The notes below the pieces were generated by a model. The model saw only the letters and a program-made list of their open reading frames with translations. It did no database searches and was not told the origin of the DNA. 64,000 nucleotides of DNA from Cellulomonas wangleii (GTDB taxonomy: Bacteria; Actinomycetota; Actinomycetes; Actinomycetales; Cellulomonadaceae): positions 496,001 to 560,000 of the forward strand of contig NZ_CP074405.1 of NCBI RefSeq assembly GCF_018388445.1, written 5' to 3'. Both the position numbers and the translations under genes were made by a program. Position 1 is the first letter of the stretch. Every line of letters begins with the position of its first letter. Below, piece by piece: positions 8,151 through 27,816 of this stretch.

Positions 8151-8600
8151 CCGCCGCGGGGTACTGACGGAACTCAGTGCCTTGAAGTGACAGAACCCCT
8201 CGCGGGGGCCCGGAAGGGCGCCTCGCGGGGGGTTCAGTCGTTCCAGCTGGGCTCGTTCGGGCCGTTCGTGGCTGGACGATCGGCGTGCGCCGGAGTTGGC
8301 TCGCTCAGGCGACGGTGCCCGGACATGACGGCAGGCCCACCGGCCTGGGGCCGTGGGCTTGTCGAGGGTGCGGGGTTGTCGCCGAGGTCAGGCTGCGGTG
8401 GGCGGGCTCAGCGCCGCGGGCGGCTCGTCGTCGTCGAGGGGGATCTCCTCGTACCCGGCGATGGCGCGGTCGCGTGCGAGCAGGATGTCGTCGCTCTGGA
8501 ACCCGATGCGCTTGGCCCACTTGCGGACCATGCGCAGGTTGAAGTGCACGACCGAGGCGGGGAGGACGAGCGTGGGCTGGTTAGCGGCCGGACGGCAACC
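8151..8600 (-). mobile_element. IS remnant, copy B (transposase C-terminus, internally deleted)
   Basis: 8151-8552 repeats 3611-4012 with only a few substitutions, in the same orientation. At 8553 it jumps to sequence that in copy C lies roughly 170 bases further inside the element (GAGGCGGGGAGGACGAGCG), so copy B carries an internal deletion. The transposase tail on the minus strand ends at 8388 (NLRMVRKWAKRIGFQSDDIL). Copies A and B bracket the lipoprotein/metalloprotease pair as direct repeats 4540 bp apart. Confidence 0.75.
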
Positions 8601-10017: not shown

Positions 10018-11323
10018 CTACCTGCGCCGCTTGGCTGCGAGCTGCTCGAAACCGAATCCAGCTGCGGCCCCGAGGGTCGCGCACCCACCTGCCGCGAGAA
10101 GCCCGGCACCTCCGGTCGCGGCCGCGGTGAGGCCCGCGCAGACACCGCCGACGACGCCCCCGATGGCCCAGGACGCCACACCTACCGAGCCGTTGTAGGT
10201 GTCACCTCGAGCGTAGGCCCTGACCGTCTGGAACGCCTGGACCGAGTCGTACGCGCCACTGAGCGCGTCAACGCCCTTGGTGAACCACCCCCACCTGATC
10301 TTGGTCCCGGTCGGGTCGGTGAAGTTCGCCGGGTTGCCGGCCGCGTACGCGTACGGGTTGGGCTCCTGGCCGGTCGGGTCGTACTGCGTGAACCGGCCCA
10401 GACCCGGGTCGTAGTAGCGCGCGCCGAGCCGGTACAGGTTGGCCGCCGCATCCCACAGGCCGCTCGCGAAGCGCAACGGGTTGTCCCTGATCACGGGGTT
10501 GTCGGTCGCCGCGCGCAGCTCTCCGTACGGGGAGTAGGAGTACCCGCCGGTGAACCCGCCGGCGGCGTCGAACACCCCGATGACCGAGTCCGTCGCATCC
10601 TGGACGTAGTACAGGCGTTTGCTGCCCTGCTTCGCCGCCAGGACGTTGCCGCGGGTGTCGCGGGTGAACACGTGCGTTGTGGACCCCGACGTCTGGGACA
10701 CCAGCCCGATGGACGCGCTGGTCCAGGACGCGGCGGGGTTCGCCCGGGAGACCGTCTCGGCGTTGCCCTGGTCGAACCCGTCGTACGTGGCCGTGCCGAT
10801 CGACGTGACAGCCATCCGGGAGTCGTAGGTCGCGCGCTGCCCGGTGATGCCGTTCGTCAGCTGGTTGCCCACCGCGTCGTACTGCCACGCGGTGGTGTCC
10901 GCGCTGGATGACGTCAGACGGTGCGTGGTGTCGTACGCGTACGTCGTGGTCCCCGCGGGCAGCCCGGTGTTGGCCGATCGGGTCTGCGACGTGCGGTTGC
11001 CGGCCTTGTCGTACCCATACCCCCACGCCGCGTTCGTGGTCGAGCCCGTGCGTTCGGTGGCGTTGGTGAGCCGACCGAGCGAGTCGTAGGAGTACGACGT
11101 GACCGCGCCGGCCGGGACGCCGACCTCCTTGGTCGAGGTGCGGGTCTGGACCGCGAGGCGGTCCGCGGACGGCCCGGACGCGCCGGCCTTGGTGAAGGAG
11201 TACCCGACCTCCGCCACGACGGCACCGGCCGCGTTCGTGGCACGGATGAGGGTGGGCCGCCCGGACCGGGGGTCGCTCAGGTCGAGGCGGGGCGCAGCAG
11301 CCCGCAGGGGCCCGCTCCGACCA
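10018..11323 (-). pseudogene. RHS/YD-repeat protein, C-terminal part only
   Basis: The reading frame carries YD-type repeats (YSYDSLGRLTNATER, YGYDKAGNRTSQ, YAYDTTHRLTSS, WQYDAVGNQLTN) and the RHS core ending YSPYGELRAAT, LYRLGARYYDPGLGRFTQYD and PNPYAYAAGNPANFTDPTG, followed by a tip of about 96 residues rich in Gly/Ala (GGVVGGVCAGLTAAATGG). RHS proteins are normally well over 1000 residues; here coding sense begins only at RLDLSDPRSGRPTL and fades into a run of nine C at 11324-11332. There is no start codon in context, so this is a 5'-truncated remnant or a silent tip donor. The small membrane gene at 9803 follows the stop by 11 bases. Confidence 0.8.
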
Positions 11324-11378: not shown

Positions 11379-11645
11379 CTACGTGCGGTAGGCGTCGCGG
11401 CGATGAGCGATCGTCAGCACGGTCACGGTGACCACACGCGCGTTGATCGTGTAGATGACGCGGTACTCACCACGTCGTGCCGACCACTTGCCCTCGAGCT
11501 CGTTCCGTAGGGGCTTGCCGACGCGGAACGGCGCCTCCGCCAGCGGACCAGAGAGGAACTCGATCACCGCCGCGGCCACCGCCGGAGGCAACCCGCCGGC
11601 CAGGGCGCGCCGCGCCGGAGGAGCGAGCTGGACCTCGTACCTCAC
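11379..11645 (-). CDS. RelE/ParE-type toxin of a toxin-antitoxin pair
   Basis: 88 residues from a GTG at 11645: [20 protein letters not shown], with [20 protein letters not shown] and the typical end [15 protein letters not shown] of the RelE fold (mRNA interferase acting on translating ribosomes). The basic residues K51, R54, R55 and Tyr near 59 sit where RelE-family active-site residues lie. Its GTG overlaps the antitoxin stop as GTGA, so translation is coupled to the antitoxin. A decayed copy of the C-terminus occurs at 27503-27600. Confidence 0.9.
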
Positions 11646-11914
11646 GCGTTCGCAGCGCGGGCACGCAAGACGTCTGCCAGCGGGGTGACGTCACCGCGGG
11701 CGACTGCGGCGTCAGCCTCTCGGACCTCGGCCATGACTGCGGCGTCCGACAGGACGGCGATCGTCTCCTCAAGGGACGCGAGGTCGTCGGGCGACATCAG
11801 GACCGCCGCCGGCTCGCCGTTGCGCGTGATGGTCACGCGCTCGTGCGTGTCGTGGACGGAGTCGACGAAGCGAGACAGGTGTGCCTTCACGTTCGCCAAC
11901 GATGTCGTCGTCAT
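11642..11914 (-). CDS. Phd/YefM-type antitoxin
   Basis: 90 residues, [20 protein letters not shown] with the Phd DNA-binding N-terminal fold ([20 protein letters not shown]) and an acidic C-terminal half that would neutralise the RelE-type partner. A longer start at 11932 exists, but TATGAT, a near-perfect -10 hexamer, lies 8-13 bases before the ATG at 11914 and there is no purine-rich site, which suggests a leaderless transcript starting at or near this ATG. Family members repress their own promoter. Related broken copies lie at 8628-8849 and 27585-27779. Confidence 0.88.
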
Positions 11915-12865: not shown

Positions 12866-13387
12866 ATGGTTGAGATCCGCGAGCGGACGCTCCAGGGTTT
12901 GCGCGACGCGGGCCTGGCGGGGTTCGCGCCATTTGCTCGGCTTCCCGATGCGCACGTGCCGACACACCCTGGTGTGTATGTCGTCGTTCGGGACTCGTCG
13001 GAGCCCGCCGTGTTCCTCGAGTCGAGCGTGGCGGGATGGTTCAAGGCCAAGAACCCGTCGGTCGAGCTCAACCGCCTGACTGACGCGTGGGTGGCGAGCG
13101 CGATCGTGCTCTACATCGGCAAGGCCGGCGGCGGGTCGAAGGGGGCGCGAGGGTTGCGGAAGCGGCTCGACGAGTACCGACGCCATGGCGTGGGGCAACC
13201 CGTCGGGCACTGGGGCGGTCGCTACATCTGGCAGCTAGCCGATGCCGACGATCTGCTGGTCGCGTGGTTGCCCACCCCGCAGACGGATCCGGAGGACGTC
13301 GAAGCCGCACTGCTGACTCAGTTCGCGGCGCACTACGGACGCCGCCCCTTCGCGAACCGCAAGATGGGCCGTGCGACGCGTCCGTGA
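12866..13387 (+). CDS. GIY-YIG-like nuclease domain protein
   Basis: 173 residues, start [16 protein letters not shown]. The signature pieces are present in order: GVYVVVRD (in the GIY position), [10 protein letters not shown] (YIG), [13 protein letters not shown] with the conserved Arg, and a later Glu (EDVEAALL) that could be the metal-binding residue. The GIY Tyr is replaced within GVYVV, as in some families of small stand-alone members. Such domains cut or nick nucleic acids; here no other DNA-binding domain is present. ATG at 12866 follows ACAGGGGCG. The neighbours suggest mobile or defence context, but no partner is evident. Confidence 0.7.
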
Positions 13388-13539
13388 TCGCGTCCGATCC
13401 AGCTCGCGGCAGCGTCCACGCGGGATCGCGCGTTCTTGCAGTTCAGCGCGTTGCGGTGTGAGCGTTGAGACCGAAGTCGTGTGACTGCATGTCCCCGCGG
13501 GCTCCCGGACGCGCAGGTCAAGGCAGTTGTGTCACCATC

Positions 13540-14180
13540 CCGCCACGGGGTACTGACGGAACTCAGTGCCTTGAAGTGACAGAACCCCTCGCGAGGGGCC
13601 CGGAAGGGCTTCTCGCGGGGGGTTTCGTCGTTCCCGGGGTGCTCGATCGGGCCGGCGGGCGGTGTTCCGGCGGGCACTTCGCGGGGCGAGGCGCGCAGGT
13701 GGCGGCACCCGGGCACGATGACGAGCCCACCGGCCTGGGGCCGTGGGCTGGTCGAGAGGGCTGGGTTGTCGCCGGGGTCAGGCTGCGGCGGGCGGGCTCA
13801 GCGCCGCGGGCGGCTCGTCGTCGTCGAGGGGGGTCTCCTCGTACCCGGCGATGGCGCGGTCGCGTGCGAGCAGGATGTCGTTGCTCTGGAAGCCGGTGCG
13901 CCTGGCCCACGTGCGGACCATGCGCAGGTTGTGGTGCACGATCGCGCGAAGTCGGTCATGATCGCGGTGGCGGCCAGCCCGACGAGGCGGATCCAGCCGC
14001 GCTGCACCCCTTCGCCGTCGCGTGCCTTCATGTTCCCGAACACCGCCTCGATGGCGGTGCGGCGGCTGTAGTCGGCGATCCACGCGTCGGAGCCCCAGCG
14101 GTGCTCCTGACGCAGCTTGGTGGCCACCGAGGCGGGCAGCACGAGCGTGGGCTGGTTGTAGACCTTCATCCGCCGGCCCC
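13540..14180 (-). mobile_element. IS remnant, copy C (longest, frameshifted transposase)
   Basis: Shares the outer 80 bases and the transposase tail with copies A and B but extends further inward. Read on the minus strand from about 14169: YNQPTLVLPASVATKLRQ, WGSDAWIADYSRRTAIEAVF, GNMKARDGEGVQRGW, IRLVGLAATAIMT, then a one-base change of frame near 13950 and HHNLRMVRTWARRTGFQSND to a stop at 13778. The EAVFGNMKAR stretch is where the last acidic residue of a DDE transposase would lie. The preceding 150 bases (13388-13539) hold no gene. Confidence 0.75.
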
Positions 14181-14253
14181 GGGCTGAGGCGAGGTCACGG
14201 CGGAACTGCGGGACCTTGAACTGACGGCTGCCGTCGTCGCGTGCCCGGCCGTT

Positions 14254-14395
14254 CCTGCTACTGGGGCATCTACCGCAGCGGCACCAACGGCGGCGACATC
14301 ATCGAGAACGACATCGTCCAGGCGGCCACCCGACGGTGACGCTCCAGGAGGGCCAAGACTTCGAGAACGGCTGCGGCGTGTTCGTAAAGCAGTGA
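14254..14395 (+). pseudogene. C-terminal remnant of a secreted protein
   Basis: Frame 1 reads CYWGIYRSGTNGGDIIENDI then VQA and goes out of frame; shifting by one base after 14323 restores PTVTLQEGQDFENGCGVFVKQ and a stop at 14393. This Cys...Cys ending with YRSGTNGGDII and GQDFE is a pattern I know from C-termini of actinobacterial exported proteins. The 5' part was lost at the border of IS remnant C. Confidence 0.55.
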
Positions 14396-14401
14396 CCCAG
14401 T

Positions 14402-14432
14402 GCCCGGCGCGTCGCAGGGGGACGCGCCGGGC
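14402..14432 (+). terminator. intrinsic terminator
   Basis: 12-bp perfect stem GCCCGGCGCGTC (14402-14413) with 14421-14432 and a 7-base loop, 6 bases after the stop of the secreted-protein remnant. Confidence 0.75.
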
Positions 14433-14619
14433 GTCCTGCAGTCCCGGCCGACCCCACGGGCCTTCGGCCTGGCGACCCTGTCGTGGTCGGCCGCGCCCGG
14501 TGACGAGCCGGACGCCCGACTGGTCGAGTGATCTTCTGCCGTCGGCCCGGCGACCGGCACGGTTCACGCCGCCACGCCTGGCACCCTTGCCCCTCAACGC
14601 ACCGCTCGGAAGGACTGCC

Positions 14620-15741
14620 ATGTCGGATCTGCCCGTCGACGACGACACGGACGCACTCGACGACACCGCTCGCGCCGTGGTCGACGAGGAGCGTGCCGCC
14701 GCGCGCAAGTTCGTCCAGGGCTTGAGCGCGGACGAGATCCGGTCCGGGGTGTGGTTCAGCAAGCTCATCGGCGGCGCCCTGAAGACCTACACCGACAAGG
14801 TCGACTGGCAGTACTTCCAGGAGAAGTACGAGGGCGTTCCCGCCGACGTGATCGTCGACCAGCGGATCAAGATGGCGTCCCGGTACGCGGCGCTGGAAGG
14901 TGGCTTGTCGACTGGCGCCTACACCGCGACACTGGCCGCGACCATCGGGACCCTCGGCGGGGCGTCCCCGGCGACCGTCCCCGCCGGCGTCGCGGCGTTC
15001 ATGGTGGACGTCGTCTTCGTGACCCAGCTTCAGTTGCGCCTCGCGTACGACGTCGCGGTCCTGTACCGCGTCCCGCTGGACCTGTCAGACCCGGAGGACG
15101 TGTGGAAGCTCGTCCGGGTCGCGTTCACGATCAAGAGCGGAGAGCTGGCGCGCGAGGGCGTGTCCAAGGCCGTGCCGGCGTTGCTGCGCCCGTTGCTGAA
15201 GAAGTACTACTCCGGGTCCGTGCTGCATGCCGCGAAGGCGTTCCCGGTCGTGGGCAAGTTCCTGCTGCAGCGCAACGTCATCAAGTTCGGGATCCCCCTC
15301 GTCGGCATACCGCTGTCGGTGCTGGTCAACCGCTACACGACCCTGGCCGCCGGCCGCCACGCGCGGGCGGTCTTCCGCAATGAGGCCCGGATCGTGGAGG
15401 TTGCCCAGAGCCTCGCGGCGGCGAGCGAGTCTCCGCGCCTGCTGCTGTGGGTGACGTGGTTGGTAGTCGAGGCGGGCGGGGCGTCGGACGACGAGGCGAT
15501 GCTGCTGCGGAACCTGGTGCGGTACGTGCGGGAGGTGCACGAGGTCGTCGACGAGGAACTCGCCGGAGTGATCGACGTCGACCCGGGGCGCGTATGGCGG
15601 CTGCTGGCGAAGACGACCGGTGACGTCAGCGACGTCATGGCAGCGGCGCACCGCGTGGCCCGGGTGGACGGCGAGCCGTCCGCGCCCCAACGCCGGGTCC
15701 TCGCCGCGCTCGCCGATCAGGTTGCCGCTCGCGCCGCGTGA
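14620..15741 (+). CDS. EcsC-family protein with a TerB-like C-terminal region
   Basis: 373 residues from ATG 14620, which follows GGAAGGAC. Residues about 75-260 look like an EcsC domain: helical, with the Gly/Ala-rich stretch GGLSTGAYTATLAATIGTLGG, VPAGVAAFMVDVVFVTQLQL and a run LVGIPLSVLVNRY. The last 110 residues (from about 260) are helical with acidic residues spaced as in TerB-like domains (WLVVEAGGASDDEAMLL, AHRVARVDGEPSAPQRRVLA). EcsC-domain proteins are of poorly known function and are linked to membrane transport or secretion. It stands alone between IS remnant C and the RNase III-like gene. The domain call is by pattern only. Confidence 0.65.
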   Translation: MSDLPVDDDTDALDDTARAVVDEERAAARKFVQGLSADEIRSGVWFSKLIGGALKTYTDKVDWQYFQEKYEGVPADVIVDQRIKMASRYAALEGGLSTGAYTATLAATIGTLGGASPATVPAGVAAFMVDVVFVTQLQLRLAYDVAVLYRVPLDLSDPEDVWKLVRVAFTIKSGELAREGVSKAVPALLRPLLKKYYSGSVLHAAKAFPVVGKFLLQRNVIKFGIPLVGIPLSVLVNRYTTLAAGRHARAVFRNEARIVEVAQSLAAASESPRLLLWVTWLVVEAGGASDDEAMLLRNLVRYVREVHEVVDEELAGVIDVDPGRVWRLLAKTTGDVSDVMAAAHRVARVDGEPSAPQRRVLAALADQVAARAA

Positions 15742-15819
15742 CGAACGCGTCCGGCCACGCTCTGCCCGCTCCCGCCGGCCGAGGTCGGGCGTCGCGACGG
15801 CGACGCGACGAGGACCCGC

Positions 15820-18630
15820 TCAGCCGGCGGGTCGGGCAGCGGGTTCCCGCACCGGTTCGCGGAGGTGGTCGATCGCGCGCTGAGCACGCGCCTGCCAACC
15901 GTCGTCGTCGCTCTCGGAGTCGCTGTCGAGAAGGCCGCGGAGGTGCTCGACCAGTCCCGCCAGCCACGGGTCGGCGGCGCGGTTGGCGAGCGCGTCGGCC
16001 GCGGCACGGCCCAGAGGGGTCAGCGGGGGCTGGGTCACGGCGGGCGCGACCATCAGCACGGCGCCGTCCTGGGGGGCGACCCTCAACTGGGGTACGAGCA
16101 AGGCAACCACGTCGAGCACGTGTCCCAACGTGGCGGGCAGGTCGGCACCATCGGCGCGGAGGATGACACGTATGTCGCCCTCGGCGGTCTCCACGGCGAC
16201 CTCCAGCTCGGCCTCGACCGCGGAGGCGACCGCGGCGCTCAGCCGCACGAGCATCGCACCCACCCCCGCGGTCCCGGGAGCGCTGCGTGGGTACTCGGCT
16301 CCGAGGCCGTGCGGCGTCGTGCCGACGGCGGCGCACGCATCGCGCACGGCGGCGCCCAGGTCGTCCGTGGGCAGCGAGGTCACTGCCTCGAGCACGGCGA
16401 GGACGGCCTGCGTCCGCGCCTGGGCCTCGGGCGACATCTCGCCGGTGCCGCAGGCGCGGCGAACCGGTGCGAGCGCCTCGCGGAGCGCGTCGCGCAGCGA
16501 GCGTGCCAGCAGCGCGCGGTAGTACCCGGACACCGCGCGGTTGAACGTGTCGAGCGTGCTGCTGCCCGCCAGGACGCGCTCCACACCCGCGGACCACCGG
16601 CCGTGTCTGTCGAGGCTGCCGGAGACGACCAGGTCGACCCCCAGGCGCCGGGCGGTGACGTCCCGGCGCGGCTCCGGCCCACGACGCGCGACGGACACCG
16701 CCTCCGCCCACAGCAGTTGTGCGAGCACGGCGGCCTGGTCCCGGGGCAACGTGTTGGGCAGGTCGCCGGCCGCCAGAGAGAGGATGAGGTCCAGTACCGA
16801 CGACGCCGCGAGCAGCTTCGCCCGTGCCTTGTTCGTCTCCCAGGGGCCGGACCACTGCGTGCGATTGCCATCCCCGAACAGGCACGTGGCCCGGAACGCC
16901 CGCTCGTGGTCGAGGCCCTGCGGCTCCACGATGAGCTCGACAGAGCAATCGATCGACGTGCACAGCGCCACGAGCTGTGACACAGCGTCGAGGTTGTTCC
17001 GCGCCTCGGCGAGCCATGTAGCGACCGCGTCCGGGACGCGCCGGTCGAGCGTCGCGCCTCCGGCCAGCCAGGTGGCCCCGAGGATCGCTTGTCCGACCTC
17101 GGCATGCTGGTTGGTCGCGGGCGTGGTGCCCTTCCCGTAGAGCGCGCCGCCGCCCGGTGCCAGCGTGCGTCCCAGCCGTGCCATGTGCTCGGCCGGCACA
17201 TCGGGGAGTCTCGCCTGCTCAGCGTCCGGCGTGAGCGACCGCTGCAGGGTCGCAGCCGCGAAGTGGTGTGCGGTGAGCGCCGGGGCGATGAACGAACCGA
17301 GTGCTGCCAGTGTTGCGTTGGACCGGACGTCGCTCGCCTCCGCGGCCCGACGGTTCTCGTGCGCCCAGGACCCGTGGACCAGGGCTTCGGTCAGCAGGCC
17401 GTGGGCGGAGGCGGGAAGGTCGAACACTCGCGCGAGCTCGCCCACGGTCGCGACGTGCGCAGCGGGAGCCCCGCGCAGCGGTGACGGGCTATGCGGGCGA
17501 CGGGGCGCGGTCGCGGGTGTGGTCGGGACGACGTCACGTGCGTGCGTGTGGGCGTAAGCGCGGTGGGCATCACGTCGAGCGAGGCGTGTCGAGGTTCCAG
17601 AGCCTGTCGCACTGCGCCCCTGGCGATCGCGCAGGGTCACAGTGAAGCGCCGCGCGTGGTCCGGCCCTTCGGAGGACGTGTGCAGCTCTGGGGCGTACCC
17701 CAGTGAGTTCTGCACGAGCGTCACCCAGTCCGTGCCGGAATCGGCCGCGGGGGTCCAGAACCGCCGGACGGCCGCGACGGCGGGTCGGTGGCTGCCGGTG
17801 GTCAGGCACAGAGCCCCGAGCACCTGCATGGCGATGGCTCGCGATGGCCCGCCGAGCCTTCCTGCGGAATGCTCGCCGCGACTGAGGAGGCCCAACCCGT
17901 GCCCTTGTAGGTATTCGCTCAGCGCGTCGCGGACCTGCGTGTGGGTGCGTGCGACGGAGTGGACCGTGTCGGGGGTGACCAGGTCGCCACTGCGGCGGTG
18001 GTACTCCTGGATGACCGCGAGCTGCAGCCACCGGTGGCCCACTCCTGCGAGCATCTCGAGCGCTAAGTGGCTCACCCCGGGTAGGTGGTTCTCGTGTGCA
18101 TACGACGCGTGCACCGACGCCCACCGCAGCCAGGCCCCGGAGACCGGGTCGAGCGGAGCCACGCCAAGGCAGGCGGCGACCTCCATTCCCCCCGGGGGCA
18201 GGAGGGGCAGCCCCGGCGGCGTGGGCGGAGCGGGCAGCAGTGGCACACGCACGCCGGCGTGCTTCCGGCGCGACGCGCGGGGCGGTCCCGACGGCCCGAG
18301 GGAGGGGCTCGCCGCGCGCTTACGACGCGACTCCTCACGACCCATCACGACGGCCAAGCCTGCGCGGATCGAGCTCTGCAGCCCGATGCGGATGGCGTCC
18401 TCGGTCCGCTCGCACTCGGCCACCAGGGACCAGTCCCCGCGTAGGGCGAACCGGTGCCGCAACCGCGCGAGGAGCGCCACAGCTTCGTCGCGGCTCATGA
18501 CGGCGTCAGCCACGGTGATGGGCCGACGCAGCCGTGCCGCCATCCGGTGCAGCGGCTCCCTGCCGGACGGGTCGGGTTCACGCAGCGCGACGATGCCGAC
18601 CCACCGGTTGCCGAAGCTGTACGCAGTCAT
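15820..18630 (-). CDS. tandem degenerate RNase III / dsRNA-binding domain protein
   Basis: 936 residues. By eye it has two RNase III-dsRBD units. Unit 1: RNase III fold about 150-310 (WASVHASYAHEN, LALEMLAGVGHRWLQLAVIQ, LLSRGEHSAG) and dsRBD about 320-385 (EGPDHARRFTVTL, then GTSTRLARRDAHRAYA). Unit 2: about 425-590 (LLTEALVHGSWAHEN, SNATLAALGSFIAPAL, GQAILGATWLAGG) and dsRBD about 595-665 (PQGLDHERAFRATC, then ETNKARAKLLAASSVL). The catalytic signature NERLEFLGD and the later D..E pair are mostly lost (unit 2: E to A, D to S, final E to Q; unit 1 keeps one Glu), so cleavage is unlikely. A C-terminal region of about 270 residues is unrecognised. The layout recalls Dicer but without helicase. 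It is divergent from the GmrSD-like gene, 289 bp apart, suggesting a two-gene defence locus with dsRNA recognition (inference). Confidence 0.65.
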   Translation of the reverse strand: MTAYSFGNRWVGIVALREPDPSGREPLHRMAARLRRPITVADAVMSRDEAVALLARLRHRFALRGDWSLVAECERTEDAIRIGLQSSIRAGLAVVMGREESRRKRAASPSLGPSGPPRASRRKHAGVRVPLLPAPPTPPGLPLLPPGGMEVAACLGVAPLDPVSGAWLRWASVHASYAHENHLPGVSHLALEMLAGVGHRWLQLAVIQEYHRRSGDLVTPDTVHSVARTHTQVRDALSEYLQGHGLGLLSRGEHSAGRLGGPSRAIAMQVLGALCLTTGSHRPAVAAVRRFWTPAADSGTDWVTLVQNSLGYAPELHTSSEGPDHARRFTVTLRDRQGRSATGSGTSTRLARRDAHRAYAHTHARDVVPTTPATAPRRPHSPSPLRGAPAAHVATVGELARVFDLPASAHGLLTEALVHGSWAHENRRAAEASDVRSNATLAALGSFIAPALTAHHFAAATLQRSLTPDAEQARLPDVPAEHMARLGRTLAPGGGALYGKGTTPATNQHAEVGQAILGATWLAGGATLDRRVPDAVATWLAEARNNLDAVSQLVALCTSIDCSVELIVEPQGLDHERAFRATCLFGDGNRTQWSGPWETNKARAKLLAASSVLDLILSLAAGDLPNTLPRDQAAVLAQLLWAEAVSVARRGPEPRRDVTARRLGVDLVVSGSLDRHGRWSAGVERVLAGSSTLDTFNRAVSGYYRALLARSLRDALREALAPVRRACGTGEMSPEAQARTQAVLAVLEAVTSLPTDDLGAAVRDACAAVGTTPHGLGAEYPRSAPGTAGVGAMLVRLSAAVASAVEAELEVAVETAEGDIRVILRADGADLPATLGHVLDVVALLVPQLRVAPQDGAVLMVAPAVTQPPLTPLGRAAADALANRAADPWLAGLVEHLRGLLDSDSESDDDGWQARAQRAIDHLREPVREPAARPAG

Positions 18631-18919
18631 CGGTTCCGCCGTTTCACGACGCAACGGTGGGTCGTGGCTAGAGACTCGCCCATCCGCGCAGGCTACCGGC
18701 GCTTGCGGGTCCGCTTGTCGGCCGTTCCTGGGTGCAGACGGGGCGAGGCGGGTACCGCGCGGTCGCGCCTGGTCTTGCACCCAGCTGGGCCGCCGGCGAC
18801 GGCCGCGACGCCGAAGAGGGGGTGAGTTCGCGGGAGCCGTCGGCGTTAGTGAGCACCCGCGCGCGAACGTCGGACTAGGTTGCAGGGGTCCGCGCCGCGT
18901 CAGCCCGAATGAGGAGCCG

Positions 18920-21382
18920 ATGGACACGAAGGTCCGCACCCCGCTCGAGATCTTCAACCTGCCGCAGCACCTCGTGGTCCCGCTGTTCCAGCGCCCGTAC
19001 GTGTGGGACGAGGAAGAGCAGTGGCAGCCGCTGTGGCAGGACATCGAGCGCACCGCGAACCTTCGCCTGCGTGACCCGTATGCGACCGGCACTCACTTCC
19101 TCGGGGCCGTCGTTCTCCAGGCGCATGAGGGCGCCACCGGTGTCGTTCAGGCGGCGAACGTCATCGACGGGCAGCAGCGTCTGACGACTCTGCAGATCAT
19201 CCTCGACGCGACGGCCGCCGTGTACGAGGAACGGGGCTTCGACCGGCTGGCGAAGCAGCTGACCTCCATGACGCACAACGGCGCCGACTTCGTCCCCGAT
19301 CCCGCCGACCAGCTCAAGCTGAGGCACACCAACGACGACCGGGCCGCGTACGACGAGGTCATGAACGCCGAGCCTCCGATCGAGTACGGCGCCCTGCGAC
19401 ACGGGGCGTCGAAGATCGCGCGCGCACACGCTTTCTTCGTCGGGCAGGTCCAGGGGTGGCTCCTCGCCGAGAGTGACCGCAGCACCGTCGAGGAGCGCGC
19501 CGAGACTCTCGCGACCGTCCTCAAGCAGGGCCTGCAGCTCGTGGTCATCGACCTGCGCGCATCCGAGGACTCGCAGGAGATCTTCGAGACCCTCAACGCG
19601 CGCGGGACCCCGCTCACCGCCGCTGACCTGGTCAAGAACTTCGTGTTCCAGCGCCTCGACGCCGAGGGTGCCGACACCGAGAAGGTGTACAAGGAGGTCT
19701 GGCCGTTCCGCACAAGGTTCTGGGACGCTGAGGTCCCTGTCGGTCGAGAGTCGATGACCCGCAGCTCGGTGTTCCTCAACCAGTGGCTCGTGTCGCGGAC
19801 CGCTGAGCCCGTCTCGACGAAGCAGACGTTCACGCTCTTCAAGCACTACGCGGAGCACCTCGCGACCCAGAAGATGAGCGAGCTCCTTGCGACCATCAAG
19901 GCCCAGGCGGACCTGTACGAGCGGTGGACGCTTGCCGCGGACGATCCTGACCGCCAGCTCACGGTCGTCGAGATGTGCGTGTACCGCCTCAGGGCCATGG
20001 GCACGGAGGTGCTCAAGCCCATCCTGATCTGGCTGCATGAGCCGGGTCGGGACCTTCCCCAGAGCGTGATCGACGACGTCGTGACCGCCATGGAGAGCTG
20101 GCTCGTGCGTCGGATGCTGCTGCGGCTGCCGCTCGCCGGCGCGAGCCGCCTCATCGCGGACGTTATCCGCGTGCACCGGTCCACGCCGGCCGACGAGCTC
20201 GCTGCGAGTGTGTCCGCGTACCTGTCGCGGCTGCGGGTCCTCAGCACGTACTGGCCTGGCGACGTCGAGGTGCGTCGGAGCTTGCAGACGGAGCCCGCCT
20301 ACAAGCGCTTCTCACGATCCCGACTCCGGATGGTCCTCGAGGCTGTGGAGGACGACCTCCGCTCCACGCACGACGTCGGCTGCGTGCCGCGCCGCGGCTA
20401 CCCGCTCGAGCACCTCCTGCCTCAGTCGTGGAAGTCGCACTGGCCGGTCGACGGCCTCGCCGCCGAGATCGAGCGCAACGAGCACGTGCACCGACTGGGC
20501 AACCTCACGCTCCTGACGGCTTCCCTCAACTCAGCCGTCTCGAACGGCCCCTGGCTCGGCTCCGCTGGCAAGAGGGAGAAGCTCGCCACGTACGACGTCC
20601 TGCTTCTCAACAGGGACGTGCGTTCTGCCGGCGCCGACGGGTGGGACGAGAAGCACATCGACGAGCGCACCGAACGGCTCGTCGACGCGATCGTGCGCAT
20701 CTGGCCGGTGCCGGCAGGCCACGTCGGCGAGGTCGACGACGCGAGGCCCGAAGAGGAAGCCTGGGTGGAGGTTCGGCACCTCATCGCCGCCGGTCTCCTG
20801 CGCCCGGGCACCGTCCTGGCGGGCCGCCCCGGCAAGTACGGCAGCGCGTCCGCGACGATCACGGACGACGGCTCCGTCGTCGTCGACGACGACATGACCT
20901 TCGAGTCACTCTCCGCCGCGGCCCGCCACGTCCGAGGCGGCATGACGAACGGCTGGATGTTCTGGCACCTGTCCGACGGTCGACGCGTCGCGGACGTGCG
21001 CGAGACGTACCGCGGACACGCCACGTCGCCCGGTGCTTCGACGCTGCGGCCGTGGAGCCCCGAGACGGATGCTGACGATGCGACGGACTTCTGGAACGGG
21101 CTCACGACGGAGGCGCAGGCCCTCTTCGGGCACCTCATCGACAGCTCTCCCGCGCCCGTCTCGGCGCCTGAGCTGGCGGCTCTCCTCGGGGTGGATGTCC
21201 GCGCGGTGGCAGGCCTCCTTGCGTGGCCCGGGAGGACGGCGCGGAGCATGGGCCGCCAGCTCCCGTCCCGCTGGATCGACGGCGTCCCGTCCCGGTACTG
21301 GATGGACGAGTCGACGGCTGAGCTCTTCTCCTCCGTGCGAAGTTCTGTCGACGGGTATGGGGCATCCATCGACCTGACGTGA
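18920..21382 (+). CDS. GmrSD-like nuclease: DUF262 + DUF1524 HNH + RAMA domain
   Basis: 820 residues. DUF262 at the N-terminus (LVVPLFQRPYVWDEEEQW, IDGQQRLTTLQIILDA near 85, ETLNARGTPLTAADLVKNF near 225) is the NTP-dependent GmrS-type part; DUF1524 follows with an HNH-type site (LEHLLPQSW near 495, HRLGNLTLLTASLN near 525), the GmrD-type nuclease. After it come a RAMA-like domain (about 620-700; LIAAGLLRPGTVLAG, ATITDDGSVVVDDDMTF, MTNGWMFWHL) and a C-terminal winged-helix-like piece (about 715-815). GmrSD enzymes are type IV restriction systems cutting modified phage DNA; the RAMA domain is usually found with restriction and modification genes and may read modified DNA. ATG 18920 follows GAGGAG. 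Divergent partner: the RNase III-like gene. Confidence 0.88.
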   Translation: MDTKVRTPLEIFNLPQHLVVPLFQRPYVWDEEEQWQPLWQDIERTANLRLRDPYATGTHFLGAVVLQAHEGATGVVQAANVIDGQQRLTTLQIILDATAAVYEERGFDRLAKQLTSMTHNGADFVPDPADQLKLRHTNDDRAAYDEVMNAEPPIEYGALRHGASKIARAHAFFVGQVQGWLLAESDRSTVEERAETLATVLKQGLQLVVIDLRASEDSQEIFETLNARGTPLTAADLVKNFVFQRLDAEGADTEKVYKEVWPFRTRFWDAEVPVGRESMTRSSVFLNQWLVSRTAEPVSTKQTFTLFKHYAEHLATQKMSELLATIKAQADLYERWTLAADDPDRQLTVVEMCVYRLRAMGTEVLKPILIWLHEPGRDLPQSVIDDVVTAMESWLVRRMLLRLPLAGASRLIADVIRVHRSTPADELAASVSAYLSRLRVLSTYWPGDVEVRRSLQTEPAYKRFSRSRLRMVLEAVEDDLRSTHDVGCVPRRGYPLEHLLPQSWKSHWPVDGLAAEIERNEHVHRLGNLTLLTASLNSAVSNGPWLGSAGKREKLATYDVLLLNRDVRSAGADGWDEKHIDERTERLVDAIVRIWPVPAGHVGEVDDARPEEEAWVEVRHLIAAGLLRPGTVLAGRPGKYGSASATITDDGSVVVDDDMTFESLSAAARHVRGGMTNGWMFWHLSDGRRVADVRETYRGHATSPGASTLRPWSPETDADDATDFWNGLTTEAQALFGHLIDSSPAPVSAPELAALLGVDVRAVAGLLAWPGRTARSMGRQLPSRWIDGVPSRYWMDESTAELFSSVRSSVDGYGASIDLT

Positions 21383-21501
21383 CGTGACGTGGACAGCCTG
21401 TGGTTGGCCGCGTGGTGTTTGCCCAGGTCAGGCAGTCGCGGTGTGAACACTTCACCTCGGATCCTGTGAAGGTCCTGTGGGCAGCCGGGTCGCGGCCCAG
21501 G

Positions 21502-22330
21502 TCAGGCAGTTGTGTCAACACCCCGCCATGTGATGTCGCAGGACATCAGCAACAGGCCGGACCCGCAGGGTCCGGCCTGTTGGCGTTTCTGGGGTTGGTA
21601 GTCGCGGGTGGTGTAGATGGTCAGCTCGCGTAGGAGTTTGCCGGTGATGGCGTGCACGATGCGGACGTCGAGGTCGGCGACGAGCGTGATCACGGGGGTT
21701 CGGGCGTGGGGTCGTCCGATGCCGATGGGGTGCACGCCCGGCGATGCGCAGGGTGAGTTTGCCGTTGGTGTCGATGCCGTCGTGGCGGATGCGTTCGTGG
21801 GTGCCGGCGCCGCCGTGGGGGTATGCCTTGGCTGTCGCGGTGTAGGCGGCGGCGGGGGTGCGTCGGTGCAGGGAGGTGTGTGGGCGGGCGGTGTCGTAGT
21901 GCTTGCGCCACTGGTCGAGCTGGGTCTGCGGCTCGGTCAGGTTCGTGGCGGGGGTCGTGTGGCGAGCCACTTCTTGAGGGTCTGCTGGACGCGTTCGACC
22001 TTCCCGCAGGTGGTGGGGTGGTTGGGGCGGAAGGTGCGTTGCTCGACGTGCAGTCGGGCCAGCTCGGACTGGAACGCGTTGCGCCCGCCGCGGCCGCCGG
22101 CCAGGCGCGTGGTGAACACCATGCCGTTGTCCGACAGGACCGCGGCTGGCACGCCGTTGTCGCTGATCGCGGCGCGGAAGGTAGCCACGACGTCGGGGCC
22201 GCGGCCCCGGTGGTGGGCGGCGCAGGCCAGCACGAACCGGGAGTGGTCGTCGAAGAACATCAGGACCTCGGTGTCGGTGCCGTCGGTCAGGGGCATGTGG
22301 GCGAAGTCGGTCGCAAGTCGCCGTGTCGAG
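21502..22330 (-). pseudogene. IS481-type transposase remnant with two frameshifts
   Basis: Minus-strand frames join as DDE transposase: TDFAHMPLTDGTDTEVLMFF with the first Asp region, VPAAVLSDNGMVFTTRL with the second Asp, and RTFRPNHPTTCGKVERVQQT with the Glu; then a frameshift near 21957, QLDQWRKHYDTARPHTSLHR, another near 21745, and HPIGIGRPHARTPVITLV to the end. The N-terminal helix-turn-helix part is missing, so the copy is 5'-truncated. Its outer end at 21497-21530 contains the repeat CAGGTCAGGCAGTTGTGTCA, also found outside the IS remnants at 8124 and 13514. Confidence 0.8.
21550..21582. terminator. 15-bp perfect hairpin
   Basis: CAACAGGCCGGACCC, loop GCA, then the exact complement. 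It lies inside the end of the IS481-type remnant and could stop transcription coming from either side (GmrSD-like gene on the plus strand, transposase on the minus strand). Confidence 0.7.
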
Positions 22331-22401
22331 CCACGATCCGACCCTCCTTGGTCCTCCCGAGAGCACGGCGCAGTCACCAAGAACACACCAGCGTCTTCCA
22401 T

Positions 22402-22417
22402 TCGAACATGTGTTCGA
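22402..22417. promoter_or_regulatory. SOS box (LexA-binding site)
   Basis: TCGAACATGTGTTCGA matches the actinobacterial LexA consensus TCGAAC-N4-GTTCGA at every defined position. It stands upstream of the unknown gene and the methyltransferase gene, which suggests that this operon is repressed by LexA and induced by DNA damage. Confidence 0.8.
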
Positions 22418-22482
22418 CTACCGTTGGAGTGGTGGGCGAACCGGTGAGTGCGGCACGAACCAAACCAGGGCACCATGGTGTC

Positions 22483-22812
22483 GTGCCAAACGAGCCGTAC
22501 AGCAGAAGCCTCAGGTGGCTCGGCATCAGCCTCGAGAAGGGGACCCCAGCCGTCCCAGATGACGGCCGGTACTACGTCCTCAACGGGACTGACGTCTACT
22601 ACTCGAGCGCCAGCGTCAACCTTGCTCAGGCTCACTACGAGCTGCTGGAGGAGGAGATGAGGGCTGCACACCCGGAGCTGAGCGACCCGAGGGACGTCAT
22701 CGCTAAGGAGCAGGCGTTCCACGACATCCTCAGCGCCCGTGGTGAGGCTCGGCAGCGAGCCCGCACCCAACATGAAGCCAAGGGCGGGAAGGGCGGTCGC
22801 AGCGGCGTATGA
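22483..22812 (+). CDS. unknown 109-residue protein upstream of the methyltransferase
   Basis: From GTG 22483: VPNEPYSRSLRWLGISLEKG, GRYYVLNGTDVYYSSASVNL and an amphipathic helix AQAHYELLEEEMRAAHPELS, ending in a basic Gly-rich tail (HEAKGGKGGRSGV). No known family seen. The start is uncertain: GTG codons near 22430 and 22453 are in frame and closer to the SOS box, and none has a strong ribosome-binding site. Its TGA overlaps the methyltransferase ATG by 4 bases (ATGA), so the two are translationally coupled. A control or specificity role for the restriction-modification cluster is possible but unproven. Confidence 0.6.
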   Translation: MPNEPYSRSLRWLGISLEKGTPAVPDDGRYYVLNGTDVYYSSASVNLAQAHYELLEEEMRAAHPELSDPRDVIAKEQAFHDILSARGEARQRARTQHEAKGGKGGRSGV

Positions 22813-23693
22813 GCACGGCCATGAGCCAACAGCAGAAGCTGTGGGAGGAGAGCATCATCGACAAGACACCGTTGCCGAGCGGACGTAAGCGACCGGCCGG
22901 CGAGTCGACCACGAACGTCGTCCTGAGCTCGCACCTCGGTGACAACGCACCGGTTTTTAAGGACATCCTGAAACTGTATGTCCCCGAAGGGTCCACGATC
23001 GCTGACGTCACCTGGGGCAAGGGCGCCTTCTGGAAGTTCGTCGAGGAGGGCACGTACAAGACGCTCTTCACCGACATCCAGTCGGGTGTCGACTGCCGAG
23101 ACCTCCCCTACGAGGACGGCTCGCTTGATGCTCTCGTACTCGACCCGCCGTACATGGAGGGCCTGTTCCGACAGACGACCGGCGAGATGGCTGGCGGCGG
23201 CTCCCACGCTGCCTTCCGTGAGAACTACAGCGACGGCAAGGCCACCGAGCACGTCGAGGGTGCGCCGAAGTACCACGACGCTGTCCTGGACCTCTACCTG
23301 AAGGCAGGGGAGGAGGCGTGGCGGACCCTGCGGAACTACGGGGTTTTCATCGTCAAGTGCCAGGACGAGGTCTCAGCCAACCGGCAACGCCTCACGCATG
23401 TTGAGCTCATCAACGCCTGGGAGGAGCGGTTCTACTGCAAGGACCTCTTCGTGGTCACGAGAGTGAACCGGCCAGGCATCGTGCGGCTCGTGAAGCAGGA
23501 GCACGCCAGGAAGAACCACTCGTACTTCTTGGTATTCGTGAAGCGGAACCCCGAGTTCCCTAAGCGGATCCGGCCGACCGCCACTGAGGCGAAGGCGATG
23601 GGGCTCGTTGCTGAGAAGGGCGTCCTGACGAACGGTGTCGAGGAGCCGGTCATCGACCCCCCGAAGGCCGGCAGCGCGACCGAAGCTTCGTAG
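22809..23693 (+). CDS. DNA methyltransferase (DPPY motif)
   Basis: 294 residues. The catalytic motif IV is LDPPY at 111-115, in the context DALVLDPPYMEGLF, indicating methylation of an exocyclic amino group (N6-adenine or N4-cytosine). A degenerate motif I, IADVTWGKGAFW (64-75), precedes it, followed by TDIQ as the acidic residue contacting AdoMet ribose; GVFIVKCQDEV and SYFLVFVKRN are core strands. The target-recognition part is probably the segment around 120-160 and the C-terminus. It overlaps the upstream gene and faces a PD-(D/E)XK gene tail-to-tail across a shared terminator. The nearby SOS box implies damage-inducible expression. Codon choice is less GC-extreme than in the flanking chromosome, consistent with transfer. 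Confidence 0.88.
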   Translation: MSTAMSQQQKLWEESIIDKTPLPSGRKRPAGESTTNVVLSSHLGDNAPVFKDILKLYVPEGSTIADVTWGKGAFWKFVEEGTYKTLFTDIQSGVDCRDLPYEDGSLDALVLDPPYMEGLFRQTTGEMAGGGSHAAFRENYSDGKATEHVEGAPKYHDAVLDLYLKAGEEAWRTLRNYGVFIVKCQDEVSANRQRLTHVELINAWEERFYCKDLFVVTRVNRPGIVRLVKQEHARKNHSYFLVFVKRNPEFPKRIRPTATEAKAMGLVAEKGVLTNGVEEPVIDPPKAGSATEAS

Positions 23694-23709
23694 CGCTATA
23701 GCCAGCGCC

Positions 23710-23756
23710 GACTGCATGACCGAGCCCCCTCGTCCGGGGCTCTCGGTCATGCAGTC
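23710..23756. terminator. bidirectional terminator
   Basis: Arms GACTGCATGACCGAG (23710-23724) and CTCGGTCATGCAGTC (about 23742-23756) pair around a GC-rich inner part. It separates the convergent methyltransferase and PD-(D/E)XK genes. Confidence 0.85.
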
Positions 23757-23765
23757 CCGCTGACG

Positions 23766-24449
23766 TCAGTCGCTGTCGATGACGAGGACTTCGCCACCGT
23801 CGTCCTCGGTGACAACCCGCACCGGTGCGGGACCGAGGCCCCTCTCACGCTCCTCTACGAGCTCGTCGAGGAGATTCCAAGGGTCCGCCTCATACGGAGA
23901 CCCCGGCGGGTCAGTCATCGGCATCGAAGTAGCGAGGAGCCCGTCGAGTTGCGTCTGCGTGTAGAATCTCGACGCACCACGCCTTCCGCTGACACGGGGC
24001 AGGTCCTCGTTCTTAGCGAAGGCGAAGTGCCACTTGCCGTAGAACCCGTGCAAATTGACGGCGAGGAGATCGAACTCGCCGACCAGAAGACATGTGGTGT
24101 CAACGGTCGATCCGTCGGGGAAGACCACGGGACGCTTGTCGCTGGCATCGCACTGGAAGTTGGCGACCCTGTCCCCGGCCCTATTGTACTTGATGCTGTT
24201 CGTCTGCAGCGACTTCACCTCGACTGTGAACGTGTGACCTCGGTAGTCGAAAGCAATGTCACCTTTTTTCGTCCGGTCGTGGTCGTCGTACTTCGTAACG
24301 TTGGATACCCGAGGGTCACTCTCGAACCAGAGTCGGCGACACTTCATTTCGGCGGCGTATCCGGAGACGAAGCTGCGAAGGCTCGGGTTGTCGGTGAGTA
24401 GCTCGTTGATCTCTTCGTACGTCAGATCCCAGTCATCCAGGTAACCCAT
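23766..24449 (-). CDS. PD-(D/E)XK restriction-endonuclease-like protein 1
   Basis: 227 residues. The nuclease core is visible as KKGDIAFDYRGHTFTVEVKS: Asp64, then Glu77 and Lys79 in EVK, the usual spacing of a PD-(D/E)XK site. Flanking segments shared with the second protein at 25085 are MxYLDxW at the start, FESDPR, FQCxxSDKR, GEFDLLAVNLHGFYGKWHFA with AKNEDL, and WNLLDELVEERERG near the end. It lies convergent with the DNA methyltransferase, which together look like a type II-style restriction-modification system. Specificity unknown. ATG 24449 was chosen as the alignable start; the ribosome-binding site is weak (ATGGGACG region). Confidence 0.78.
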   Translation of the reverse strand: MGYLDDWDLTYEEINELLTDNPSLRSFVSGYAAEMKCRRLWFESDPRVSNVTKYDDHDRTKKGDIAFDYRGHTFTVEVKSLQTNSIKYNRAGDRVANFQCDASDKRPVVFPDGSTVDTTCLLVGEFDLLAVNLHGFYGKWHFAFAKNEDLPRVSGRRGASRFYTQTQLDGLLATSMPMTDPPGSPYEADPWNLLDELVEERERGLGPAPVRVVTEDDGGEVLVIDSD

Positions 24450-24503
24450 GTGTTCGTCCCATACCGTCGGCGGTTCTCGTCGGAAAACCCTCCCACGGTT
24501 CGG

Positions 24504-24992
24504 CTAGGTCCCGGACAGTTCGACACGGGTGAACCGACGAGAGCCCTGGATCCTGCCAGTGCTCTCGACGCTGACTTGGTTGCTTGTGAGCGGCCTGGGA
24601 CCGCTCCTGGATGTCGGAGGGGATGCTCCTCGAGCATTCAGCACGATGCCCTGCGAGGCTGCCCACGCCCGGGTCGCCTTCGGGTCGCTGCTCTTCGGGG
24701 CGACCGAGCCCGCTCGCCGGCGCTGGCCACTCTTCCCCGTGTCCCGCCGTCCAGCGTCGGTGTATGGCTTGAGACTCTCCTCGAACGCTGCCGTGTGCTC
24801 GGCGTAGACGTCGACCTCGCGGCCGCGTCCATCTACGGTGAAGCGGCGAGTGTCGGTCGCTTCCGCGCGGCAGATGTCGCAGTGGAAGGTCGTCGTGACA
24901 CGTGTAGCCGTTCGGTGTCCTCCAGGCGGCGGTGTGGGCTTAGCGGCGGCTGCTTGCCCCAGTTCGCTCGTGCGGATGGGGGCGATGTTCAC
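24504..24992 (-). pseudogene. Lsr2-like protein gene with a frameshift in the DNA-binding domain
   Basis: From GTG 24992 the frame reads VNIAPIRTSELGQAAAA, then the zinc-finger/dimer-like FHCDICRAEATDTRRFTVDG and EVDVYAEHTAAFEESLKPYT, and the Lsr2 C-terminal helix ATRAWAASQGIVLNARG. At about 24625 the expected motif continues only after a one-base shift: SIPSDIQERSQAAHKQPSQ. In the annotated frame the rest is out-of-frame sequence to TAG at 24504. Lsr2 is the AT-rich-DNA silencer of actinobacteria; small Lsr2-like genes are common in mobile regions. The RGR minor-groove hook is RG-S here. The gene is probably inactive. Its GTG overlaps a TGA in frame with the upstream nuclease gene. Confidence 0.6.
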
Positions 24993-25084
24993 CTCTTGTC
25001 GCCGGGGGTGAGCGGCTTGCGCAGGGGCACGCCGACGACTAGGTCGACGCCAGCTTCCTCGACCTCGATTTCGACGAGCAGGTT

Positions 25085-25780
25085 CTATTTCCTGTCGAGC
25101 TCGCCGTGCTCGTCGAGGGACTCGGCTGCCTCCTGGTCCATGGTCTGCTCGGGAGCAACGCCCCGTGCTCGCTCCTCGATGATTTCGTCGAGGAGGCTCC
25201 ACGGTTCGGACCGGAACGGCCATTCGAGCGGCTCGCAGATCTTCTGCGACGAGGCGATGAGTGCCCTCTGCTGCGCTGGCGTGTACCTGTGCCAGGTGCT
25301 ACCGGTCAGGTCGGAGTTCTTGGCGAACGCGTAGTGCCAGTGCTCTCCGAAGCCGAAGAGGCTCACTGCCACCAGGTCGAACTGGCCGAACAGCAGCAGG
25401 TTCGTCTCGAGCGTCGTGCCGTCGTCGAACTCGATCTCCCGCTTATCGGAACCGTTGCACTGGAAGGTGCCCCCCCACCGACCGTCTCCTCGGTCGATGC
25501 AGCTGGCGGTGTCAAGGCTCTTGGTCTCCACCTTGAACTGCTGGTTCCGGTACGTGAAGTTCAGGTCGCCCTTCATCCGCTTCGTCTTGTCCCGGTGGTT
25601 GACTCGGTTAGAGTCGGCGGGCTTCACGAGGTTGATGATCCGGGGGTCGCTCTCGAAGACGTCGGTCCGGAGCTTGAACTCCGCCACGAAGCCGTACACC
25701 ATGCCTCGTAGGACGCTGCTCTCTGCGACGAGAGCGTCGAGCTCGTCGAGGCTAATGCCCCACTTGTCCAGGTAGACCAT
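25085..25780 (-). CDS. PD-(D/E)XK restriction-endonuclease-like protein 2 (paralogue)
   Basis: 231 residues, clearly paralogous to the product of 23766-24449: MVYLDKWGIS, FESDPRIINL, core MKGDLNFTYRNQQFKVETKS (Asp72, Glu85, Lys87), FQCNGSDKR, GQFDLVAVSLFGFGEHWHYA with AKNSDL, and WSLLDEIIEERARG. Both copies keep the catalytic triad, so a two-subunit nuclease cutting an asymmetric site, or two independent enzymes, are both plausible. After TAG (25085-25087) the same frame stays open for 31 codons (LLVEIEVEEAGVDLVVGVPL...) to a TGA at 24989 that overlaps the next gene's GTG; this looks like a premature stop or read-through. ATG at 25780. The 256 bases upstream to the IS3 element contain no other gene. 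Confidence 0.78.
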   Translation of the reverse strand: MVYLDKWGISLDELDALVAESSVLRGMVYGFVAEFKLRTDVFESDPRIINLVKPADSNRVNHRDKTKRMKGDLNFTYRNQQFKVETKSLDTASCIDRGDGRWGGTFQCNGSDKREIEFDDGTTLETNLLLFGQFDLVAVSLFGFGEHWHYAFAKNSDLTGSTWHRYTPAQQRALIASSQKICEPLEWPFRSEPWSLLDEIIEERARGVAPEQTMDQEAAESLDEHGELDRK

Positions 25781-26063
25781 TCCGATCCCGTCCGGTGCGT
25801 TGGATGCTGTGTGTCACACAGGGTCGCACCTTCCACCGGGCGAATTGGGCACCTCGCCAAGATCTGTCGGCGGAAGTTCCGGGTGCTCCTGCTTACCGCG
25901 ACCGGCACGGCTGCTTGTACGCCATGAGGGCAGGGCTCGGCCGGCGTGGTCTCCGCGAGCACCAATCTGGAGCGGCCTGCAGCGGGAGAAGTTGGACACC
26001 ATCGCTCATCACAGACCTGTGAATAGCGGTCGGGGCTGATGCACGAGTAGGTGACAGTCGGTC

Positions 26064-26954: not shown

Positions 26955-27235
26955 GCGCCAGGGACAGGTACGCCGCGGCGCGGCGGAGGATCTCGTTCTC
27001 CTGCTCCAGCAAGCGGATCCGCCGGTGGGCTTCACGCAGCTCGGCCGAGTCCGTGCGGGTCACCCCCGGCCGGTTGCCGTCTTCGATGTCAGCGTCACAC
27101 AGCCGGTTGCGCAGGCACGACTCGGCGATGTCGAAGTCCGCTGCGCCCTGCTTGATCGGAGCGTCCCCGCGGCGAGCCAACGGCCACGACGTCGTCGCGG
27201 AACTCCATCGGATAGGGCCTGGGCACGGTGCACAT
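26950..27235 (-). pseudogene. IS3 orfA, frameshifted near its start
   Basis: From ATG 27235: MCTVPRPYPMEFRDDVVAV, then one extra base puts the continuation ARRGDAPIKQGAADFDIAES in another frame; it goes on with CLRNRLCDADIEDGNRPGVT (helix-turn-helix) and the leucine-zipper-like AHRRIRLLEQENEILRRAAA, ending near AHLPGK. OrfA binds the element ends and regulates transposition. Confidence 0.8.
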
Positions 27236-27779: not shown

Positions 27780-27816
27780 AGCGGTTCGGTACCTCCGCTC
27801 GGTGGACTCCACCTGT

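Follow-up and report, generated by a model that had tools for sequence, protein, structure and literature searches.

An apparently inactive tandem RNase III protein of Cellulomonas wangleii and its histidine-kinase relatives: candidate bacterial receptors for double-stranded RNA

Introduction

What would a bacterium gain from a protein that carries two ribonuclease (RNase) III units and has probably lost the capacity to cut RNA with either of them? The question is raised by a gene of Cellulomonas wangleii (Actinomycetota; assembly GCF_018388445.1, contig NZ_CP074405.1), found at positions 15820..18630 on the minus strand of the 64,000-nucleotide stretch analysed here (the window; C1:496001-560000 of a 4.08-Mb single-contig genome, with a GC content of 63-78% in 2-kb steps). 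Its product of 936 amino acids (aa) combines two apparently dead units, each consisting of an RNase III-like domain and a double-stranded RNA (dsRNA)-binding domain (dsRBD), with a C-terminus that is kinase-like in its predicted fold. The host genome holds one copy of this tandem gene and also encodes an ordinary RNase III (C1:2522271-2522945). Proteins of the family bear public names as varied as 'putative dsRNA-binding protein', 'double-stranded RNA binding motif domain-containing protein', 'ATP-binding protein' and 'dsRNA-specific ribonuclease'. An initial annotation of the sequence had recognised the two units; it had missed the kinase-like C-terminus, a conserved N-terminal motif and a sister branch in which the same body is joined to a histidine kinase. 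Taken as a whole, the explanation that we slightly favour is a non-catalytic dsRNA receptor from an actinobacterial defence-island family, with the outputs proposed in the Discussion.

Results

The open reading frame (ORF) is real and runs from an ATG at 18630 to a stop at 15820 over 936 codons. In the ORF list, the frame stays open up to 19092; the start was placed at 18630 and not there because the MTAYSFGNRWVG start is common to most relatives, this motif being the site at or near which they begin in the family alignments. A home-made codon-usage gene caller picks the same start, and codon usage is coding-like.

The presence of two RNase III-dsRBD units, claimed by the initial annotation, is borne out by Pfam, TIGR02191, HHalign and an AlphaFold2 (AF2) model. 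Pfam dsrm matches two stretches above its cut-off (E 3.8e-6; best stretch, residues 568-614), Ribonucleas_3_3 matches one stretch below its cut-off (5.9e-4), and TIGR02191 (RNaseIII) matches two stretches at 2e-6, far below its equivalog cut-off. A search of Protein Data Bank (PDB) sequences with the window protein gave weak dsRBD matches only (best 0.03). When compared by HHalign with 19 actinobacterial RNase III (rnc) proteins, the family profiles of unit 1 and unit 2 reach E-values of 1.6e-27 and 2.3e-21, respectively, and match each other at 1.6e-16; by this sequence measure, the likeness of both units to RNase III exceeds chance by far. The order of an RNase III fold followed by a dsRBD is recovered in both units by Pfam, HHalign, the AF2 model and structure comparison.

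Domain borders were taken from the AF2 model of the window protein, and all features lie on the minus strand. The N-terminal motif MTAYSFGNRWVG...EPLHRMA (residues 1-31; 18538..18630), defined from a 12-row alignment, is followed by a small and mostly helical region (residues 27-107; 18310..18552) with a leucine, L54, that is conserved family-wide. The first RNase III-like domain (residues 146-296; 17743..18195) precedes a dsRBD that keeps its GPDH loop (residues 302-365; 17536..17727). The second RNase III-like domain (residues 390-546; 16993..17463), in which Glu117 is replaced by Gln, is followed by a dsRBD with a GLDH loop (residues 549-621; 16768..16986); the sites of catalysis appear lost in both RNase III-like domains. 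Beyond a helical linker delimited by AF2 secondary structure and hhalign (residues 630-770; 16321..16743), the model predicts a histidine-kinase-ATPase-like fold devoid of ATP-binding motifs (residues 751-866; 16033..16380) and, together with the alignment, C-terminal helices (residues 872-923; 15862..16017). The domain order and the two dsRBD signatures given by the initial annotation thus stand, while its borders for the later domains were off by about 20-45 residues.

The strongest evidence concerns the active site. We take the catalytic positions to be E38, E41, D45, E65, D114 and E117 (Escherichia coli numbering), among which D45 and E117 are key metal ligands of RNase III. All six are kept in 19/19 rnc proteins. 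In units 1 and 2 of the window protein, they read E and A (E38), A and A (E41), H and S (D45), T and T (E65), A and E (D114), and M and Q (E117). The same picture was obtained over 25 family rows, one of which lacks the start of unit 1 (n = 24 there). Asp at D45 is kept in 0/24 first and 0/25 second units, and Glu at E117 occurs in none of the 25 first or 25 second units; E65 is kept in neither unit across the family. Glu is retained at E41 in 7/24 first units and in no second unit. Gln occupies the E117 position in 25/25 second units, and a neighbouring Gln of the first unit, Q269, is invariant in the alignments. Features of the dsRBDs persist: the first dsRBD has its GP in 25/25 and its His in 24/25 rows, the second its Gly in 24/25 and its His in 23/25. 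The tandem units are thus almost certainly catalytically dead, to judge from these residues, and the earlier statement that catalytic residues are mostly replaced was right. The opposite idea, that the protein remains an active RNase III of an unusual type in which the metal ligands are rearranged, could draw on the Asp found at D114 in 16/25 second units (0/25 first units; Glu in the window protein) and on the Glu or Asp found at E38 in 14/24 first units; the disappearance of D45 and E117 from both units in every row makes it extremely unlikely.

The best structural matches of the predicted fold are Drosha and Dicer, with both RNase III domains aligned in one chain, and the two domains are predicted to pack as an internal pair in a similar manner. 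For the C-terminus, the predicted fold resembles that of a histidine-kinase ATPase, and kinase motifs are absent. Residues 628-930 are homologous to the pre-kinase region of the sister branch (hhalign E 5e-7), and the C-terminal helices occupy the position where the active kinase starts in that branch.

This sister branch came to light by tblastn against plasmids, where seven records contain the family body. On two Streptomyces plasmids (L031, L034), the body continues into a C-terminal histidine kinase (HATPase_c 2.7e-16 and 1.4e-15), and a gene for a 402-aa response regulator follows, with ends overlapping. A kinase-branch query retrieved 6/121 Streptomyces genomes, three with the kinase branch (L043, L044, L045) and three with kinase-less members; the regulator adjoins the kinase gene in each of the former. 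The regulator query found the same 3/121 genomes and, among 394 genomes of the class, two more loci, both with a tandem RNase III kinase directly upstream. The regulator therefore adjoins the kinase in 7/7 loci read, of which five were located through the kinase gene and two through that of the regulator. By motif pattern, the H, N, G1 and G2 boxes are present in 11, 10, 10 and 8 of the 12 proteins of the kinase branch (two of which, P0017 and P0018, have ends out of frame), and in 0/19 kinase-less members. On the Streptomyces europaeiscabiei plasmid L031, a CHAT-domain gene (1673-5704) is located some 1.7 kb upstream of this pair.

The regulator has 126 relatives at E 1e-20, whereas the kinase has eight matches at 1e-5. 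Among the regulator relatives listed, one is named as coming from an Anaerolineae metagenome-assembled genome. An alignment of 54 of the 120 listed relatives shows D58, K110, R245, N246 and H250 as invariant columns, and D14 and D15 as nearly so. The C-terminal half contains the Rx4-6H motif of HEPN RNases, as a contiguous RN-x3-H in 52/54 rows. HEPN_RiboL-PSP matches 17/54 regulators weakly (E up to 0.1, best 1.7e-4), and PADLOC RTasHEPN matches two of the three regulators submitted at about 2e-4. The model of the regulator is confident (predicted local distance difference test, pLDDT, 93.9). When the regulator profile was run against PDB sequences, the best 60 of 260 matches lay over the receiver part, and two viral-contig loci also match the family over that part only. 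We read the regulator with moderate confidence as a fusion of a receiver (REC) domain and a HEPN domain.

The window gene shares none of this machinery, with no kinase or response regulator found near it. One may ask whether it is a functionless remnant of the kinase branch, in decay after the loss of both, as the 0/19 count of kinase boxes and the missing regulator would allow. Several observations make this very improbable. The 936-codon frame is intact with coding-like codon usage, and both the N-terminal motif and invariant residues are conserved across distant members. In a tree of 69 rows, which carries a long-branch warning, unit 1, unit 2 and rnc each form one group (Shimodaira-Hasegawa-like approximate likelihood ratio test, SH-aLRT, 98, 97 and 95). 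Within unit 2, 17 kinase-less rows (95) are split from seven kinase-branch rows (92), P0020 falling outside; the unit 1 group likewise divides into 15 kinase-less (99) and seven kinase-branch rows (97), with P0011, P0012 and P0020 apart. Kinase-less members hence form a diverse group rather than scattered losses and, since the branches split within each unit group, the doubling of the unit looks older, on sequence grounds, than the separation of the two branches. Some individual genes do appear damaged. The kinase-less gene of genome G182 (L029 9583-12502) is broken over two frames near the N-terminal region, and the C-terminal ends of P0017, P0018 and P0020 appear out of frame, perhaps by assembly errors or decay.

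Proper to the kinase-less branch is the conserved N-terminal motif with YSFGNRWVG (residues 1-31), along which N8, W10, G12, L16, P26, H28 and A31 are invariant over the 12-row alignment. The motif occurs in 2/396 genomes of the phylum, both being family members, and in no protein outside the family in these genomes.

The family as a whole is rare. A word-limited search of 5.8 billion clustered proteins returned seven relatives, the window protein included, and a pattern-limited scan of 84,980 species genomes returned seven loci. No phage-borne copy was found in 50,697 phage records, and 28 pattern matches on viral contigs yielded none confirmed as a family copy. The family profile matches 174/396 phylum genomes at E 1e-5, with full-family strength in two only (G000, E 0; G182, 1e-107), the next best being 1.9e-20. 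The weaker matches listed span one unit (mostly model positions ~187-420, in some cases ~410-670), as expected of ordinary RNase III, and an rnc-type NERLEFLGD-like motif is present in 19 one-unit loci, the host genome's own included. These one-unit matches to ordinary RNase III independently support the derivation of each unit from RNase III. Rarity also bears on a possible housekeeping role as an RNA scaffold, comparable to that of the mitochondrial ribosomal protein mL44, which has an RNase III-dsRBD core and is inactive as an RNase III. Foldseek does return chains of mL44 (4v1a_h, E 1.8e-4). A distribution as patchy as 2/396 phylum genomes at full-family strength and 6/121 Streptomyces genomes for both branches, along with the location on an island and on plasmids, renders such a role improbable.

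Indeed, the window gene sits in a variable island. In 19.9 kb of the congener G868, counterparts of the flank are preserved (window 27856-28632 at 88% and 29259-31201 at 77%), and the region that includes the gene, window 14101-27855, finds no BLASTN match there at 1e-20. The right-flank gene was found in 2/19 relatives searched, namely the host genome and G868. A repeat of about 300-400 bases shared with G868 (window 3611-3898, 8043-8438 and 13513-13828 versus L059 8887-9285, 79-88%) lies next to short transposase-like ORFs and is a mobile element remnant. Divergently oriented to the gene is a GmrSD/DUF262-type gene with RAMA and DUF6416 domains (18920..21382, plus strand; Pfam GmrSD_N 4.1e-35, GmrSD_C 7.8e-23; PADLOC Orf5 2.1e-79, HEC-06 6.7e-59). 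It is regarded as setting and not as a proven partner, since no neighbour is conserved across the related loci.

Fifteen kinase-less loci were considered (the window, L002-L008, L029, L032, L033, L035, L036, L046 and L047). Defence or restriction genes lie near eight of them, the other seven having been read partly or not at all, and this count comes with no background rate. The window counts among the eight through its GmrSD-type gene. PADLOC identifies HmaB, HmaC and a DpdE-like helicase at L002, ZacA, ZacB and ZacC at L008, an Argonaute with REase at L046, and an Argonaute with REase, pPIWI-RE and TmtA at L047. By annotation, BrxC with DUF1819 and DUF1788 (BREX) neighbours L035, a methyltransferase, a helicase and DUF262 neighbour L036, and a type ISP enzyme stands at the edge of L033. 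From a hand-picked set of 20 neighbours, one of them from a kinase-branch locus, 13 match PADLOC at 1e-10. Genes shared in all-against-all BLASTP are mainly transposon genes, besides a regulator-like pair (L004/L007) and an antitoxin-like pair (window/L029); loci L006 and L007 are near-identical.

This setting lends itself to a more modest explanation, in which the protein is a passive dsRNA cover for its mobile element. It would then protect structured RNAs against the RNase III of the host or adjust antisense control, and have no part in signalling or immunity. Its presence on plasmids and near transposase genes, its apparently dead dsRNA-binding body and the want of a conserved partner gene all agree with this. 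We nevertheless hold it to be unlikely, as this body is coupled in the sister branch to a histidine kinase with its response regulator, several relatives reside among defence genes, and the N-terminal motif is more conserved than a cover needs.

Other elements of the window were recorded in passing. Two ORFs of 227 and 231 aa (23766-24449 and 25085-25780, minus strand), similar to each other by eye, lie next to a methylase-like ORF (22809-23693); neither of the two is matched by Pfam, NCBIfam or PADLOC within the limits applied. The convergent neighbour at 14620-15741 (plus strand) has weak matches to EcsC (0.053) and PADLOC PDC-S29 (0.024). On the minus strand, the ORF at 10018-11217 resembles by eye the end of an RHS/YD-repeat protein, and a small antitoxin-like ORF (11642-11914) has a 42% match to the L029 ORF 18488-18766. 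Rfam found nothing at gathering scores in window 13000-29000.

Discussion

In close relatives, the dead RNase III body comes with a histidine kinase and with a partner that probably cuts RNA, which suggests that this body serves a bacterial alarm for dsRNA. Judged from sequence and model, proteins of the family probably bind dsRNA, the dsRBDs and the dead RNase III pair holding duplex RNA without cutting it. In the kinase branch, the likeliest course would be that dsRNA binding elicits autophosphorylation, that the phosphate is transferred to the regulator and that its HEPN RNase is switched on, which would halt growth of the infected cell; a dsRNA-triggered REC-HEPN system of this kind is reasonably likely. 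We give comparable credit to a defence role of the window gene. How the window branch would act is more tentative: the nearly invariant YSFGNRWVG...EPLH motif might be a docking or effector segment exposed upon dsRNA binding, with the kinase-like part serving assembly, and an output through this motif is rather less probable than its contrary. The unified scheme falls somewhat short of an even chance. It holds that dead, Drosha-like double RNase III proteins are innate dsRNA receptors of actinobacteria, acting on a REC-HEPN RNase in the kinase branch and, without phosphorelay, as a one-protein dsRNA-triggered defence via the N-terminal motif in the window branch. The initial proposal of a dsRNA-binding scaffold or sensor, not a processing enzyme, is partly supported, as it fits the family-wide residue loss and the Drosha/Dicer-like model. 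A guard against phage or mobile-element RNA, also proposed then, is possibly its purpose; the context comes from the variable island and from relatives beside BREX, Hma, Zac, prokaryotic Argonaute and GmrSD-type genes. The search for homologues and their neighbours brought relatives, including the kinase branch, and no conserved partner of the kinase-less one.

Several results weigh against this interpretation. Concerning the regulator, PDB fold comparisons returned receiver domains and did not confirm the HEPN fold, and its HEPN half had no match in the host genome at E 0.1 in a search run without a positive control. PADLOC has no match for the window protein or the kinase relative P0009, and all-against-all BLASTP of the window, L002-L008 and L029 revealed no neighbour conserved beside the kinase-less branch. 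In the window protein itself, the first dsRBD has Thr-Arg at the Lys-Lys position of RNase III, and the relative placement of domains is moderately certain (predicted template modelling score 0.65). The kinase-like C-terminus has no Pfam (HATPase) match, its assignment being by fold alone, and no hhalign profile match to the active kinase of the sister branch. Finally, the N-terminal motif is modelled with low confidence (pLDDT <50 for residues 1-25 and 30-32).

Each piece of the window protein is individually known, and the differences from known systems lie in their assembly. Compared with bacterial RNase III (rnc, TIGR02191), to which each unit is homologous over its full length, the family has two units per chain, a lost active site, and additional N- and C-terminal regions. 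Drosha and Dicer likewise have two RNase III domains in one chain, with the internal pairing predicted here, whereas the family places a dsRBD after each domain and has lost the active site; unlike Dicer, the window protein gives no helicase or PAZ hit in Pfam, even with E-values up to 5 admitted. The RNase III-dsRBD fold is shared with further inactive RNase III proteins and with mL44, which differs in being ribosomal, with one unit and no kinase-like part. As to two-component histidine kinases, the window gene lacks the H, N, G1 and G2 boxes, while the sister branch has them together with an adjacent regulator. This sister branch, with its histidine kinase and a regulator bearing an effector-like half, would work like Detocs (DtcA/DtcB/DtcC), a three-gene defensive two-component system (PMC11728103). 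It differs by a dead double RNase III as sensor and a single regulator gene, a buffer protein having been looked for within the loci read only, and the window gene differs further, with no kinase or regulator nearby and no PADLOC match. The nearest printed idea found is the cyanobacterial HEPN-RNase III-dsRBD fusion, a single protein proposed to cleave dsRNA in a predicted defence setting (PMC3710099). HEPN and RNase III-dsRBD are likewise brought together here in a predicted defence setting, except that the RNase III part is doubled and apparently dead and that the HEPN-like half resides on the separate regulator of the sister branch. Pfam, NCBIfam and PADLOC have no model for the whole window protein, and an incomplete literature search, which does not establish absence from print, found no description of such a protein. 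The window gene lacks at least one defining feature of each of active RNase III, Dicer/Drosha, histidine kinases and Detocs.

To conclude, antiviral immunity in animals characteristically detects dsRNA with receptors that leave it uncut. If our interpretation is true, a bacterial receptor derived from a dead RNase III would represent an independent recruitment of the same ligand and core fold, and the kinase branch would amount to a two-component system with RNA as its signal.

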